Shown here one piece after another: positions 44,093 through 49,184 of a stretch of DNA of 64,000 bases. The stretch covers positions 1,116,001-1,180,000 of the forward strand of contig NC_014923.1 in the NCBI RefSeq assembly GCF_000185905.1. The letters run 5' to 3'. The notes under the pieces were generated by a model. It worked only from the letters and a program-made list of their open reading frames with translations. It did no database searches and had not been told where the DNA came from. The stretch comes from Mesorhizobium ciceri biovar biserrulae WSM1271. GTDB lineage: Bacteria; Pseudomonadota; Alphaproteobacteria; Rhizobiales; Rhizobiaceae. Both the position numbers and the translations under genes were made by a program. Within the stretch, counting starts at the first letter, position 1, and each line of letters opens with the position of its first letter.

Positions 44093-45033
44093 CGCAAGCG
44101 GTCGCCGTGCCCTCGGTCCAGATGTCGCGCTTCGGCTGGCGCGACCTTGGCTTGTGGGCCGGTGCTGCCGCGCTGGTCCTCGGAGCCCATGTCGCGGTCG
44201 CCTATGCAGTGCAGAATCTCACCATGGTCACCGAAGCGGACGGCGGCCCGCCACCGGCCCAGGTGATCGAGATGGCGCCGATGGTGGTGATGCCGGCCGT
44301 ACAAGAACAGGTCGCCGCGCTGGACGCGGTGACGCCAGATCAGACCGAACCGACACCGACGACCGAGCCGACACCTGAAGAACCGGTCGAAAAGGCGGAG
44401 CCGGTTGTCGAGCCGCCGGAAGCGGTCGCGCCCGACGAGGCCGAACCCAACCGGACCGAAACGGCTGAACAGGCCGATCAGCCGCCGCCGGATGAGGTCA
44501 TCCCGGATGTTGTCGAGGCTGTCACGCCAGACGTCGTCATTCCCTTGCCGCAGCCGAAACCGGTCGAAATTGTCAAAGACAAGAAACCGGTCGAGGCCAA
44601 GGCGAAAAAACCTGTCGAGAAGCCCAAGCCGCGGCTTAAGAAGGAGAAGGCGGCTCCGCCGAAGACGGCAACCGTCGCCAGCGCCGACGCACGGCCCGCG
44701 GCCAGGACCGCCGCGCCGAAGGCAGCGGAATCGACGTCGCGCTCCGGCGACTCCAGCAAATGGGACTCCCGTCTGGGTGCCTGGATCAAGCGGCACACGC
44801 GCTATCCCAGTTCTGCCAAGGCCCGAGGCGTGGAAGGCAGGCCGTATGTCGCCTTCACGGTCGACTCGTCCGGCCGGGTCCTGTCTGCCAGGCTCTCTCG
44901 TTCCTCCGGGGATGCGGATCTGGACCGTGCGGCGCTCGCCGTGCTGCAAGGCGCCACGGTGCCGGCACCGCCGCCGGAACTCGGTTCGCGTCTGAGCCGT
45001 ACAGCGCCGTTCGTGTTCAGCCTGCGCAACTAG
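44089..45033 (+). CDS. tonB: TonB-family energy transducer
   Basis: A 314-residue TonB. It has an N-terminal membrane anchor at ~16-40 (LGLWAGAAALVLGAHVAVAY), a long periplasmic Pro/Glu/Lys/Val-rich spacer (about 60-215) and a C-terminal TonB_C fold with YPSSAKARGVEGRPYVAFTV and a repeated Leu/Arg core. It links ExbBD to the receptor at 39396. It is last in the fhuC-exbB-exbD-tonB transcript. Confidence 0.9.
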   Translation: MTQAVAVPSVQMSRFGWRDLGLWAGAAALVLGAHVAVAYAVQNLTMVTEADGGPPPAQVIEMAPMVVMPAVQEQVAALDAVTPDQTEPTPTTEPTPEEPVEKAEPVVEPPEAVAPDEAEPNRTETAEQADQPPPDEVIPDVVEAVTPDVVIPLPQPKPVEIVKDKKPVEAKAKKPVEKPKPRLKKEKAAPPKTATVASADARPAARTAAPKAAESTSRSGDSSKWDSRLGAWIKRHTRYPSSAKARGVEGRPYVAFTVDSSGRVLSARLSRSSGDADLDRAALAVLQGATVPAPPPELGSRLSRTAPFVFSLRN

Positions 45034-45058
45034 GACCGAATTTGGTCGAAGCGGCCTG

Positions 45059-45379
45059 TCAGTAGGCCAGCGACAGGCTCAGGGCCTCGACCTGTTCGAG
45101 ATAGAAACGGCATTTCGTGCGCAACAGCCCGAGGCTCGGGTCATCGGCGCCGTTGATTTCGATGGTCTGCATCATGAAGTCGAAATGGGCGTGGAAGGCG
45201 TCCACTGTACCCCAGAGACTGTCGGCCTGGCAGCTGTCGGCAATCGCCATCGAGACGAGTTGGCGGGCCTCGATCCGCGCGGCGTCAGGCGATGGCGGCC
45301 GCCTGACGATCAAGACGTCGAGCCGGCTGAAAATGCTTTCCCTGGCATCGACGCTTCTGATGTTGGCTATCATGTTCAT
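45059..45379 (-). CDS. small protein of unknown function, RiPP-like cassette
   Basis: A 106-residue, probably cytosolic and mostly helical protein. Features are an Arg-rich stretch near residue 25 (IVRRPPSPDAARIEAR), then amphipathic helices ending in YLEQVEALSLSLAY. No known domain recognised. The ATG at 45379 has GGGGGA eight bases upstream. It is the last of three small genes that follow the SagB-type dehydrogenase on the same strand, and it converges on tonB. Its relation to the cassette is inferred from strand and spacing. Confidence 0.55.
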   Translation of the reverse strand: MNMIANIRSVDARESIFSRLDVLIVRRPPSPDAARIEARQLVSMAIADSCQADSLWGTVDAFHAHFDFMMQTIEINGADDPSLGLLRTKCRFYLEQVEALSLSLAY

Positions 45380-45500
45380 GTGCAGGTCCCCCTTGGCATT
45401 CCAGACGCGCAATAGGTTCCGGTCTGAAATTGAAAAACTGGTGAGCAGAGCATTTTCAGCGGCGCCAATAAGCGCGTGGCGTTTTGGCGGGCGACATGCA

Positions 45501-45758
45501 TCAAGCTAGCGCGACCGGATGCCGGTCCTGCGGGCAGGATGCAATCAGGGCCGGGATTGCGGTTGCATCGGAGGGGTGGCCCCTGATGATGTTGGCGACC
45601 TCGGCATCTGCCTGCTCGAACCAGTAGACCATGTCGGCGCGGCGCAGGTCCGTCGCGGCTTTCTTCAGCAGCGGCAGCAGGCTTTGCAATGCGCACAGCG
45701 TCTCCCAGCGGTTTGGCCGCGAGGTCGAGCCGGCCACCGCGCATGCTGACGATTGCAT
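45501..45758 (-). CDS. small protein of unknown function, RiPP-like cassette
   Basis: An 85-residue protein. A central helical segment (RWETLCALQSLLPLLKKAATDLRRADM) and YWFEQADAEVANIIRG follow a short Ser/Ala-rich start, and the C-terminus is Pro/Ala-rich with one Cys. No family recognised. The start is ATG at 45758, four bases after the stop of the preceding small gene, so the two are probably co-translated. Confidence 0.5.
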   Translation of the reverse strand: MQSSACAVAGSTSRPNRWETLCALQSLLPLLKKAATDLRRADMVYWFEQADAEVANIIRGHPSDATAIPALIASCPQDRHPVALA

Positions 45759-45762
45759 CTCG

Positions 45763-46017
45763 TTAGGCTCTCCGTGGCTGGGCGGCGCGATTGTCTTTTG
45801 CCTGCGCCTTGGGGTGCAGCGGGTTGCCGCTGAGCTGCGCGTGCCTGGCTGGCCGTGCGCCGCGAAGAACGTCGAAGGCCTCTGCATAGGCCATGCCCAG
45901 CAGATAGGAGATCATCGGAAAACGGCTTGCTTCGGCCATTTGCACGAGCTCATTGGTCATCGACGAAATATATTGAAGACTATCGATTTCCGACTGGCGT
46001 AAGGATTGATTTGGCAC
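45763..46017 (-). CDS. small protein of unknown function, RiPP-like cassette
   Basis: An 84-residue protein: helical N-terminal two thirds (EIDSLQYISSMTNELVQMAE, then ISYLLGMAYAEAFDVLRG) and a polar Arg/Gln/Lys-rich tail. The start is GTG at 46017 with AGGAG six bases upstream, better than any ATG nearby. It follows the SagB-type gene by 66 bp. I do not recognise it; it does not show a RiPP-recognition-element pattern to my eye. Confidence 0.55.
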   Translation of the reverse strand: MPNQSLRQSEIDSLQYISSMTNELVQMAEASRFPMISYLLGMAYAEAFDVLRGARPARHAQLSGNPLHPKAQAKDNRAAQPRRA

Positions 46018-46083
46018 GTGCTGCTCCTGTCTCTGGTTATACCCTGGGAACGCGTTACTGGCCGAATACACATTGTTGGTCGA

Positions 46084-47163
46084 CTAATTGATGGATTGGC
46101 CCGCGGTGGAGGGATCTCTTTCCGGGGTCGAGAGGGTCAAGGCATAGATCGGTGCGTCGGTGAGGCTGTCGAGACCAAGCAGCCGCTTGATCGCGGAATG
46201 ACTGAGCGCGGCTGTCGGGCACGCCGACAGGCCATGATTGGTCGCCGCCAGCATGATGTTCTGGCCGATATGGCCGGCCTCGATCAGCACGACACGATAG
46301 GCGTTGGCGTCCTCATATTTCCACATCGTGCGGTCGAGCCTGGCGCAAAGCAGGATCAGGCACGGCATGGCGTCAGCCCACTCCTGTCCGCCGACCAGTT
46401 CGGAGATCTTCGGCAGATGGTTCGCGGAAATCCTGCCAAGGTCGTGGTCGGCGGCGGAATAGTGATAGACACCGGGTTCGAGGCCATCGACGCCGAGCGC
46501 GACCACATAGGCCTCATAGGGATTTCGCGCGCCGCCGGAAGGGGTCATGCCAAGCGGCAGGGTGCCGACGCAATTGGCGGTCTCACCGATGATGCCGAGC
46601 CCGGCGAACAGGCAATCGGAAAGCTGTTTGGCCGTGATGGTGGGCTGAGCCGCCGTGCGGTTGGTGCGGCGCCGCGCCATCAAGCCAAGAAGTTCGTTGT
46701 CTTCCAGTGCATTCGGCAGCTGGATGGCGCCGGCGGAATTCTTGAGCAGGAGGTCCGGCTGCGGCGTATGGCCGGCGCGTTCTATCTGCCGCTCTTCCGC
46801 TTGCTCGATGGTCATGTATTCGCTGTCCTGGACGCAGAAATGCATCAGCGCCGTCGGAAGCCCCCAACTCCATTGTCCCGAAAACTGTTCCTCCTGCTCG
46901 GCGAGAGGCGATCCGGCGGTGACCAGGGCGGAAAAATCGAGCAACTGGGGAACGACAGCTTTTAGCTCGGACTTCGACCAGCCATGGGCGCGGGCAATGT
47001 CCGCCGTCGATGCCCATTTGTCCCACGATGCGAGAAGGCCGACCATATCAGGGCTGCATTCAAATACGCTTCTGGTCAGGAAGTTGCATGCCGTGACCTT
47101 GTTCGGTCCAGGGTAGAAAACAAGCGTTTTCGAAGAGCGCATTTTCATGAAGCTGGATGCCAT
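46084..47163 (-). CDS. SagB-type flavin dehydrogenase (nitroreductase fold)
   Basis: A 359-residue protein of the SagB/ThcOx class. Residues 1-~95 form an N-terminal part resembling a winged helix. The nitroreductase-like FMN domain spans ~155-345 with RRRTNR (164-169), PSGGARNPYEAYV (208-220) and YRVVLIEAGHIGQNIMLAA (289-307), all hallmarks of SagB-type oxidases. In characterised systems such enzymes oxidise azolines to azoles in ribosomally made peptides. No YcaO or cyclodehydratase gene is visible in the window, so the real reaction is open. It lies 51 bp after the small peptide gene at 47215-47310. Confidence 0.85.
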   Translation of the reverse strand: MASSFMKMRSSKTLVFYPGPNKVTACNFLTRSVFECSPDMVGLLASWDKWASTADIARAHGWSKSELKAVVPQLLDFSALVTAGSPLAEQEEQFSGQWSWGLPTALMHFCVQDSEYMTIEQAEERQIERAGHTPQPDLLLKNSAGAIQLPNALEDNELLGLMARRRTNRTAAQPTITAKQLSDCLFAGLGIIGETANCVGTLPLGMTPSGGARNPYEAYVVALGVDGLEPGVYHYSAADHDLGRISANHLPKISELVGGQEWADAMPCLILLCARLDRTMWKYEDANAYRVVLIEAGHIGQNIMLAATNHGLSACPTAALSHSAIKRLLGLDSLTDAPIYALTLSTPERDPSTAGQSIN

Positions 47164-47214
47164 CTGCGGAGCCGAGGCGCCGACAAGCGAACCGCTCGTC
47201 GGCGCAGAACGGCT

Positions 47215-47310
47215 TCAGCGCTTGTTGTAGTGCATGCCCTGCGAAAAGAAGACGGTCTGCGTGCCGGCGGCAATCGTCAGCTTCGGAGTATTGGTCACTT
47301 TCTTGGCCAT
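47215..47310 (-). CDS. 31-residue putative RiPP precursor peptide
   Basis: A tiny gene with a strong ribosome site (AGGAAAGGG, about four bases before the ATG). The product starts MAKKVTNTPKLTIAAG and ends SQGMHYNKR. It is basic, rich in Thr and Gln, has one Ser and lacks Cys, and has no signal peptide. It stands directly upstream of a SagB-type dehydrogenase on the same strand and behind a regulator. Small size, good translation signal and position make it a likely substrate peptide. The precursor role is inferred; no leader/core boundary can be drawn. Confidence 0.6.
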   Translation of the reverse strand: MAKKVTNTPKLTIAAGTQTVFFSQGMHYNKR

Positions 47311-47576
47311 TTTTATCCCTTTCCTGACCCCAATCTGGGATCCGTTGAAGGACCCCCGGAACGGGATCCGCGCGAAGAAAGGTAAGGTCGGAAGAGTTAA
47401 TGGTTTGTTAAAATTATAGTAAAACCACGAGTCGAAGGCGGATGCGTGGATTATCTTTCTTGGTACCAAAGTGTAAAATATCGATTTTATTCAGATACAG
47501 AGTAGACAATCGTTGGCGTACGCTTTATCGGCGTACGCTTATTCTTAATTGGCGTAAGACACGGCGATCCGAGGGA
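47311..47576. promoter_or_regulatory. AT-rich promoter region of the peptide/SagB cassette
   Basis: 266 bp between the regulator stop and the peptide start, markedly AT-richer than the surrounding genes. The minus strand carries a TATAAT-like box (revcomp of 47415-47421, ATTATAG). The regulator-proximal end contains three GGCGTA repeats (47515, 47530 and 47551), two of them as the 11-mer GGCGTACGCTT with the palindromic core GCGTACGC. I interpret this as an operator/promoter for the cassette. Confidence 0.5.
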
Positions 47577-48326
47577 TTAGCCCAACCCGTCCCGGGTGAG
47601 GCTGACAACCAGTTGGTCGACGCCCGGATCGTCGAGACTGATGACATGCGCCATGCTGATGGCATCCCTTGCGTGGATGTTGGCAATGTCGCGCCGCATG
47701 ATGACGGACACGAATGCCGGGCCGGCCTCCGTCAGAAGCATGGCCTTGCCCATCAGCACCGGTTCGGAGATGGGAGCCCATTGCACGGAGATCAGCGACG
47801 GCTCTCCGGTCTGGCGGCGATTGATGCCGCTGAAATAAATCCAGTTCAGCCGCGAGATCGCCACGCCATAGTGATTGCCGCGCGCTCGTGCCCAGGTCGA
47901 TCCCCGGCGCTCCGACCACCCGGTGACCCGTCGAAAGGTGACCAGTTCGGCTTCCCGCCGCACGAAGGTCACCGAGCGCACCAGGAGGTCGAGGCGGCCC
48001 GGGATCGAGAAATAGGTGAAATAGGTGCCGCCCGCGATCGAAGGGCTGGGAGGGCGGATCATCTGGTTGAACAGGCTCTCGGACACCGGCGGCAGGCCGC
48101 GCATCACTGGCTCGGGTGTGCCGGGATCCTGGTACAGTTCCGCCTCGTCGATGCGAAAGTAGTCGCATATCAGCTTGGCTGTGGCCTTGTTGGGAACGGT
48201 CTGCCCTTGCAGGTAGCGTTCGAACTGGGTGCGATTGATGTGCAGCTCACGGCATACCGCGCTTACGGAGGCATGGTCCTTGCACAGCCGTCTAAGGTTT
48301 GCAGCGAGATTCTCGCGAATTGACAC
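47577..48326 (-). CDS. XRE-type HTH regulator with unrecognised C-terminal domain
   Basis: A 249-residue protein. Residues 1-~65 are a helix-turn-helix of the Cro/XRE type (SIRENLAANLRRLCKDHASV, CRELHINRTQFERYLQGQTVPN). The remaining ~170 residues form a domain I cannot place, with YFTYFSIPGRLDLLVRSVTF and SRLNWIYFSGINRR, possibly a ligand-binding or sensory fold. The start is GTG at 48326 with GGAAG eight bases upstream; a GTG at 48419 would add 31 residues without a ribosome site. It lies upstream of the peptide gene on the same strand and probably regulates it through the GGCGTA repeats. Confidence 0.75.
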   Translation of the reverse strand: MSIRENLAANLRRLCKDHASVSAVCRELHINRTQFERYLQGQTVPNKATAKLICDYFRIDEAELYQDPGTPEPVMRGLPPVSESLFNQMIRPPSPSIAGGTYFTYFSIPGRLDLLVRSVTFVRREAELVTFRRVTGWSERRGSTWARARGNHYGVAISRLNWIYFSGINRRQTGEPSLISVQWAPISEPVLMGKAMLLTEAGPAFVSVIMRRDIANIHARDAISMAHVISLDDPGVDQLVVSLTRDGLG

Positions 48327-48657
48327 GTCTTTGCTTCCGCAGGCGGATTTTTCATTTCGACTCGAAATCCATATAGCGTCTCCGGTCGCCCCCGCCGAAA
48401 CGCCTTGGCCACAACGCACAGAAAAAACTGATTTGGTAACGTCAATTTAGTGGGGCGGTTTGCAAAAAAAACGGAAACAATCGACGAGCGCTTCCGCCAT
48501 AAGTCCAATTGACAAAAGTCTTGCCGGAGATTGCGAAAACAGGCGGCGCGGCGCGCGGCCTTTTAGGCGCGCCGGCACGGCAAATGCCAGCCGTGGAGGC
48601 CAGCCCGGACGAGCGTCGCGGACTGCATATGGCGCGGAGAGCGAGGAATTAATCCGC
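48327..48657. other. intergenic region, no gene supported
   Basis: 331 bp between the regulator start and tRNA-Ala. It contains poly-A stretches near 48420-48475 (AAAAAAAACGG) and must hold the regulator promoter, but no -35/-10 pair stands out. A minus-strand frame at 48263-48508 crosses the regulator start in another phase and is not credible. Confidence 0.4.
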
Positions 48658-48733
<76 letters not shown>

Positions 48734-48893
48734 GTCCAGCGGATGGGCGCATTTATCGGGCGCCGCGGTTTCCTGTCAAGGCGGAGGTTTGCCGAAATCC
48801 AGTGGCCTGGCAGCCGTACCGGCGCACCGTGGCAGGCGGCCCTTGCCGGTTTCGCGTGCAATGGCTACATGTCGGCAACAATTGGAGACCGGC

Positions 48894-49184
48894 ATGCTCG
48901 CCCTCATTCAGACAATCGTCATGGCGCTCGACCTCTACTGGTGGATCATCATCGCATCGGCGATCTTTTCCTGGCTTTACGCCTTCAACGTCGTCAACTC
49001 GCGCAATCAGTTCGTCGGTTCCATCGGCAACATGCTCTATCGGCTGACCGAACCGGCGTTGCGGCCGATCCGCCGTTTCATGCCGGACCTTGGCGGCATC
49101 GACATCTCGCCGATCATCCTGCTTCTGATCCTGTTCTTCCTGCGGCAGTTCATATTGACCAGTGTGGCGCCTCTGGTCCTGTGA
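48894..49184 (+). CDS. YggT-family membrane protein
   Basis: A 96-residue protein with two membrane segments ([21 protein letters not shown] and [18 protein letters not shown]) and the typical internal [20 protein letters not shown] motif. YggT proteins are linked to cell-shape maintenance and osmotic tolerance. The ATG at 48894 has GGAG six bases upstream. It lies 13 bp before the DUF167 gene, a partnership often seen in Proteobacteria. Confidence 0.9.

Follow-up and report, generated by a model that had tools for sequence, protein, structure and literature searches.

Can a SagB-type flavoenzyme modify a ribosomal peptide without a YcaO cyclodehydratase beside it? This question is raised by a locus of Mesorhizobium ciceri biovar biserrulae WSM1271 (genome size 6.69 Mb, closest relatives Mesorhizobium). 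The locus lies in a stretch of 64,000 nucleotides (contig NC_014923.1, positions 1,116,001 to 1,180,000), hereafter the window, whose own coordinates are used below. On the minus strand, an XRE-type regulator, a 31-residue peptide and a SagB-type flavin mononucleotide (FMN) dehydrogenase follow one another in this order. The initial annotation, made from the letters of the DNA, had listed six open reading frames (ORFs) on one strand, these three and then three small genes, and all six were recovered at their positions. In our judgement, the balance leans slightly towards a minimal cassette for a ribosomally synthesized and post-translationally modified peptide (RiPP), in which the SagB-type enzyme would desaturate a constant hydrophobic residue of the small peptide, here Tyr28.

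A conserved peptide gene precedes sagB

The 31-residue peptide MAKKVTNTPKLTIAAGTQTVFFSQGMHYNKR (47215..47310, minus strand) is a real gene. Its ATG sits behind AGGAAAGGG, and the ratio of nonsynonymous to synonymous change (pN/pS) is 0.23 over 29 distinct Mesorhizobium DNA copies. One genome for each of 84,980 species was scanned with the enzyme, giving 120 loci of which the best 80 were kept; 63 upstream regions were examined, while L061, whose sequence begins within the gene, and 16 remote matches (L066-L081) were set aside. The same peptide was found 5' of sagB in 31/31 close Mesorhizobium loci (L002-L030, L034, L054). Furthermore, a related ATG ORF of 25-42 residues sharing a C-terminal motif lies 10-137 nt 5' of sagB in 27 of 32 more distant loci (L031-L033, L035-L053, L055, L056, L058, L060, L064). 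The motif, located at the very C-terminus, is [F/Y/L]-[N/D/R/S/T/Q]-[K/P/I/R]-x or FSR (for example FNKR, YNKV, FRPE). The other five comprise L059, L062 and L065, without a motif ORF, and L057 and L063, where YNKA stands inside a longer ORF. When an automatic rule including the ribosome site was applied, 26/31 distant loci passed, L056 being outside the set because its match is without the N-terminus. For control ORFs (at least 200 aa, same loci, six frames, shadow ORFs included), any such short ORF was present in 34/441 cases and one with the motif in 0/441, the motif having been read off the same loci that were scored, with near duplicates among them (L039/L040, L037/L064).

A later search gave 13 matches in 397 genomes of the order and 2 in 385 of the class, the window's own genome being in both. 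Four of the nine later loci (L124-L132) were copies of earlier ones, and the five others constituted a fresh test of the motif. It was present in three of them (L129, L130, L131), nearly so in L127, which ends in QYRNS, and not found in L132. Comparison of sequences thus establishes the motif and the linkage of peptide and enzyme, and conservation of the peptide beside SagB genes, which the initial annotation had set as a check, was borne out. A conserved precursor gene adjoining a modifying enzyme, as looked for in RiPP systems, is what is found.

Three further arrangements were observed. In L057 and L063 (Mucilaginibacter- and Polaribacter-labelled contigs) a further tail follows the internal YNKA; these may be variants with a C-terminal extension or mis-binned contigs. 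In L065 (Caulobacteraceae), an ORF with three RMLWATGSAQSN-like repeats, about -197 to -41 before the sagB homologue, could be a multi-core precursor. Finally, in L150, L155, L156 and L157, which belong to a single genus of the phylum sample, a different ORF of 21-23 residues, such as MKSISLESKKIANLACLAAAKSR, stands directly 5' of a SagB-family enzyme. This may be a second minimal type of precursor and SagB; in the two inspected more widely (L162 and L163), the next ORF resembles a transporter (by eye).

Composition of the precursors

Residues 25-31 (GMHYNKR) are invariant in the 29 distinct Mesorhizobium copies, and likewise residues 1-5, 9-11, 15-17 and 21. Among 28 precursors, the fourth residue from the C-terminus is F or Y in 25 and L in 3, two Nitratireductor peptides scored at the third residue from the end being counted among the aromatic 25. 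Position -7 is Gly in 20/28 and position -2 Lys in 21/28; net charge is at least +3 in 26/28. Cys occurs in 3/28, and 17/28 have no Ser, Thr or Cys in their last eight residues. Thr or Ser, suggested earlier as the target, does not fit this composition, in which the constant residue is aromatic or Leu. For the window peptide, PKLTIAA is the proposed leader part, GMHYNKR the proposed core and Tyr28 the proposed target.

The SagB-type enzyme and its additional domain

The enzyme (46084..47163, minus strand) scores above the NCBIfam cut-off of TIGR03605 (102.5 vs 78.4 bits) and matches the Pfam nitroreductase family; 995 homologues were obtained among 8000 candidates scored in the protein collection. 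Position 47148 is an alternative start, since in some homologues the protein starts only at residue 6 or beyond. In 58 aligned enzymes, W281 and Y283 are invariant and K282 is kept in at least 90%; the WKY of ThcOx aligns with this W-K-Y, whose K-Y we take to be catalytic. The identification as a SagB-type enzyme therefore stands.

In the predicted fold, residues 7-82 form an N-terminal domain of four strands followed by three helices. This domain is additional to the nitroreductase fold and common to BmdC/ThcOx-type oxidases. Its order in the model resembles that of RiPP recognition elements (RRE), given as beta3-alpha3 in the cited text (PMC12710340). When aligned by hhalign with a PqqD profile built from 23 sequences (two of 25 loci were dropped, their translation being without the expected pattern), the domain gave a probability of 0.7%, no better than three shuffled-column controls (0.3-1.7%), and PF05402 (PqqD) was not among the families matched by the 58 enzyme members at E up to 1.

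Distribution of YcaO

A genus-wide PF02624 search of Mesorhizobium genomes with a near full-length sagB (one of which, G065, has an in-frame TAG in it) revealed YcaO in 29/44 and none in 15/44. Because these 15 genomes carry sagB alone, YcaO is not needed, a conclusion established at the level of gene content. Where the two co-occur, at least 90 kb separates them or they stand on different contigs (tables compared by eye; nearest in G023). The initial annotation was right that no YcaO is visible at the locus; the check elsewhere in the genome, which it had called for, found one, 1.56 Mb from the cassette. Used as sole query, this YcaO had no relative in loci L002-L065 at E 0.01, a search that remote YcaOs could escape. 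A separate SagB, 33% identical, adjoins YcaO in G013 and G040, which shows the ordinary arrangement in Mesorhizobium. An azole reading of the cassette, as a thiazole/oxazole-modified microcin (TOMM) or linear azole-containing peptide (LAP), was ruled out by YcaO distribution and core composition: the cluster has no YcaO, and the core is not rich in Cys, Ser or Thr.

The regulator and candidate operators

A regulator homologue is present in 27/32 distant sagB loci, exactly the 27 with the motif peptide and none of the five others. In the window, the regulator (47577..48326, minus strand, GTG start) has a helix-turn-helix (HTH) at residues 1-70. The initial annotation had recognized the XRE/HTH character and left the C-terminal domain unplaced; residues ~98-214 are now predicted to form an 8-stranded beta-barrel, which was compared with calycin/avidin-like barrels (antiparallel, 8-stranded).

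Two regions are candidate promoters or operators. The TGTCAATTGGACTTAT element 5' of the regulator (48499..48514, minus strand) shows strong conservation across 31 aligned Mesorhizobium sequences (10/31 rows viewed), and the 16-mer occurs once in the genome at up to 1 mismatch. The intergenic region before the peptide (47311..47576, minus strand), conserved in part, contains the inverted half-sites TTACGC...GCGTA and TACTC...GAGTA (by eye). An HTH-barrel paralogue, 70% identical (L116, 7102-7908, minus strand), stands without sagB. An operator common to both was rejected, the 16-mer being absent around the paralogue at up to 3 mismatches. About 2.3 kb upstream of this paralogue, a short ORF MKKIYEKPMLLKRQKLSAVTAQ... 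(L116, 10189-10308, minus strand) looks like another small precursor.

A hairpin usually follows the peptide gene

Directly 3' of the peptide stop codon, a hairpin of 12-13 bp is found (47177..47205, minus strand). In the 50 bases after this codon at 29 loci, a stem run of at least 9 was obtained in 25 loci, z was below -2 in 25, and both in 24, compared with stem runs of at least 9 at 67/386 control ORF ends (at least 250 aa, six frames). In a longer stretch, L037 and L064 have a 13 bp stem and T-run, L058 an interrupted stem and L045 none; T-runs follow the hairpin in some loci, such as L042, L037 and L064. Pairing of the Mesorhizobium stem reaches 97.9%, falling to 31-56% when it is slid. 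Double-changed cells numbered 15, confined to 2/12 pairs, a number reached in 227/500 shuffles. In RiPP operons, hairpins often set the ratio of precursor to enzyme, and attenuators look alike.

Proposed reaction

The following scheme is proposed. The substrate would be the small, mostly basic peptide, whose Leu/Val-rich, strand-like N-terminal part may dock on the N-terminal domain of the enzyme. No cyclodehydratase would be involved: the FMN domain would itself abstract two hydrogens from the constant hydrophobic position of the C-terminal motif, which is Tyr28 (GMHYNKR) in the window peptide and Phe, Tyr or Leu in the others, so that an alpha,beta-dehydro residue results (-2 Da). A high peptide:enzyme ratio would be set by the hairpin, and the HTH/beta-barrel regulator is the best candidate sensor of the product. 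The strongest outside support for desaturation of Tyr28 comes, by analogy, from PflD. Its nitroreductase domain, with no YcaO involved, turns a Phe of a ribosomal peptide into Z-dehydroPhe, and the study proposes dehydroamino acid formation by further YcaO-free nitroreductases as well (PMC12636437).

The neighbourhoods were surveyed for ORF clusters common to at least 5 of 36 loci, named by eye. Shadow ORFs aside, sagB and the regulator alone recur in most loci. At scattered distances are ABC ATPase-like (7/36) and short-chain dehydrogenase/reductase-like (7/36) ORFs; a small XRE protein (6/36), penicillin-binding-like (5/36) and permease-like ORFs (5/36, three of these directly 3' of sagB) also recur. 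Since neither a dedicated protease nor a dedicated exporter is a recurrent neighbour in the family, the product probably acts inside the cell. More tentatively, the family may be a new RiPP class across Hyphomicrobiales, in which a lone SagB would desaturate the C-terminal aromatic or Leu residue of precursors 25-42 residues long, the product serving as an intracellular ligand of the regulator, a regulatory signal rather than an antibiotic; we find this extension rather doubtful at present.

Several observations weigh against the scheme. The strand-like leader motif, a pattern picked post hoc, occurs in 17/28 precursors, a modest excess over shuffles (mean 7.7, maximum 16 in 2000). The docking domain is proposed from fold order only, because the PqqD profile comparison gave nothing above the shuffled controls. 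Over the catalytic domain, plain nitroreductases equal BmdC (8cqs 20.4, 3hoi 19.9). YcaO is somewhat commoner in sagB genomes than in others (29/44 vs 43/102; p 0.011, kinship ignored). The conserved C-terminus and hairpin, with a T-run in some loci, also fit a regulatory leader peptide. S1, the first of the small genes, always outlives sagB and the regulator often does, so that both have some other role too. Finally, the permease-like and ABC ATPase-like neighbours keep export possible.

Alternative explanations

The same pair could perform another chemistry: SagB would oxidise the ring of Tyr or a different position, or trimming of the C-terminal piece would yield a small signal or redox cofactor, comparable to the Tyr-derived PQQ (pyrroloquinoline quinone) or mycofactocin. 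A short peptide with a constant C-terminal aromatic residue and an RRE-like domain order are compatible with this. However, Leu replaces the aromatic residue in three precursors, unlike ring chemistry, and no further peptide-modifying enzyme was recognised by eye in the surveyed clusters, no family search having been run. We regard this alternative as unlikely.

Still less probable is that the ORF is a leader peptide for arrest or attenuation, which would control sagB together with the hairpin, SagB acting on something else. A short ORF shortly before sagB with a conserved C-terminus, followed by a hairpin and sometimes a T-run, is what such control would look like. However, residues 1-5 and 9-11 are as constant within Mesorhizobium as the C-terminus, whose residue types vary between genera (RID, RPE, NKV, SR); furthermore, the enzyme belongs to a peptide-modifying family and its spacing from the ORF is not constant.

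It is highly improbable that SagB completes azoles begun by a YcaO encoded elsewhere. The genome does have one YcaO, and YcaO is somewhat enriched in sagB genomes; against this stand the 15 genomes without any, the separation where both occur, the lack of relatives of the genome's own YcaO in 64 loci (one query only), and precursors poor in Cys and mostly without Ser, Thr or Cys near the C-terminus. Least probable of all is a general nitroreductase beside an incidental peptide: the fold is that of a nitroreductase and plain members match the catalytic domain well, but TIGR03605 is above cut-off, the extra N-terminal domain is common to BmdC/ThcOx-type oxidases, and the peptide linkage extends across Hyphomicrobiales.

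A reduced or different peptide-modifying system, as first suggested, is supported, as are conservation of the peptide beside SagB and its independence from YcaO; the desaturation of Tyr28 and its product are proposals.

Small genes, natural losses and other neighbours

S1 (45763..46017, minus strand) encodes a small helical-looking protein which adjoins the regulator in part of the family. It was found in 12/32 distant loci. Its place varies: in Mesorhizobium and Nitratireductor it lies 3' of sagB; in Rhizobium, Phyllobacterium and others it stands between the regulator and the peptide, encoded on the other strand. S2 (45501..45758, minus strand), weakly S1-like, is clear in Mesorhizobium only and was not found in some of its genomes; beyond the genus it gave weak matches (E 0.011 in L050, 0.044 to S1 of L042). 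S3 (45059..45379, minus strand) was seen in Mesorhizobium only. A Pfam search of S1-S3 and the peptide gave no convincing match. S1 as a general paralogous family was rejected, with one match only in the window genome at E up to 1.

The site is present without sagB in eight genomes (G005, G020, G043, G044, G048, G053, G093, G103). G020, G044 and G048 have a common junction from peptide residue 24 to about SagB residue 296, from which those of G005 and G103 differ; in G043 and G093, regulator and S1 alone remain. G053 has lost sagB and retains an open peptide with Tyr28 changed to Asp and Gly25 to Ala. An intact regulator remains in G005, G043, G053 and G093; that of G020 has a changed end, those of G044 and G048 are decayed, and the search of G103 found none. 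In G065, G118 and G121, sagB is broken and the peptide whole. A shared deletion in L134, L137 and L138 joins peptide residues 1-24 to the last part of sagB, in frame in 2/3, leaving an open fused ORF.

S1 is kept in 8/8 of these sagB-less genomes. In seven measured, pN of its core is 0-0.04 and pS 0.25-0.54, and since pN is far below pS, S1 is under selection without sagB. The 54-residue core is almost unchanged as protein while the DNA diverges (window 45763-46017, L134, L136-L138, L164-L166). The three small genes, initially taken as part of the cassette, were left out of its core because S1 survives sagB loss and S2, where clear, and S3 are confined to Mesorhizobium.

A tRNA-Ala (CGC) lies just upstream of the cassette (48658-48733, minus strand); apart from it, an Rfam RNA and riboswitch search of 44900-48900 found nothing. 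TonB adjoins the cassette site in the Mesorhizobium genomes examined, except G065 and L141. A functional link to the convergent ExbB/ExbD/TonB-like genes at 42-45 kb was rejected, these not being among the clusters recurring in distant loci.

Comparison with known systems

The cassette was not found described in the open-licence PMC literature searched. It is a real, small and conserved precursor-enzyme-regulator unit of the RiPP kind, in a variant for which no description was found. The tiny conserved peptide and the flavin enzyme recur next to each other, mostly with a regulator of their own upstream. Together they appear to rank among the smallest peptide-modifying systems in bacteria of soil and roots, doing without the partner enzyme that is usual for SagB. 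Should the barrel regulator bind the product, rhizobia would possess a sensor dedicated to a modified ribosomal peptide.

In TOMM/LAP systems (SagABCD, McbABCD), a SagB/McbC-type FMN dehydrogenase likewise stands beside a small precursor, but here both the cyclodehydratase and the azole-type core are lacking. The BmdC and ThcOx oxidases share nearly the full-length architecture, and ThcOx the W-K-Y motif; unlike the proposed reaction, theirs is the oxidation of thiazolines. The cyclodipeptide oxidase AlbAB performs a flavin alpha,beta-dehydrogenation of aromatic and Leu residues; entries 8uc3 and 9exv are among the fold matches. The nearest named family is TIGR04511 (SagB_rel_DH_2, putative peptide maturation dehydrogenase), matched by 58/58 aligned enzymes; membership was rejected for the window protein, whose 152.3 bits are well below the 240-bit cut-off. 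TIGR04511 neighbourhoods would typically include a cyclase partner gene. Seven examined loci above the cut-off (L143-L149) showed no motif peptide or regulator within about 1.5 kb (~4 kb viewed).

In ATP-grasp loci with a SagB-like nitroreductase, the enzyme also lies beside a predicted precursor outside classical azole clusters, together with an ATP-grasp ligase (PMC8939145); none was noticed in the present cassette. Closest in principle are the PflA/PflD and Os17 (pos) clusters of Pseudomonas, where a SagB-type or nitroreductase domain acts on a ribosomal peptide without YcaO, the Os17 enzyme being annotated as SagB-type (PMC12636437, PMC7726476). Those clusters include a fusion with a multinuclear non-haem iron-dependent oxidase (MNIO), a HEXXH enzyme, GNAT, transporters and an NHLP leader, whereas here a lone enzyme meets a 25-42 residue precursor and a dedicated HTH-barrel regulator. 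YcaO-free nitroreductases in RiPP clusters are described there as rare and functionally uncharacterised (PMC12636437). The present cassette reduces such a system to two genes. It offers a clear substrate motif, natural variants by the dozen and a natural loss experiment, so that a single peptide and a single enzyme would suffice to test the reaction.

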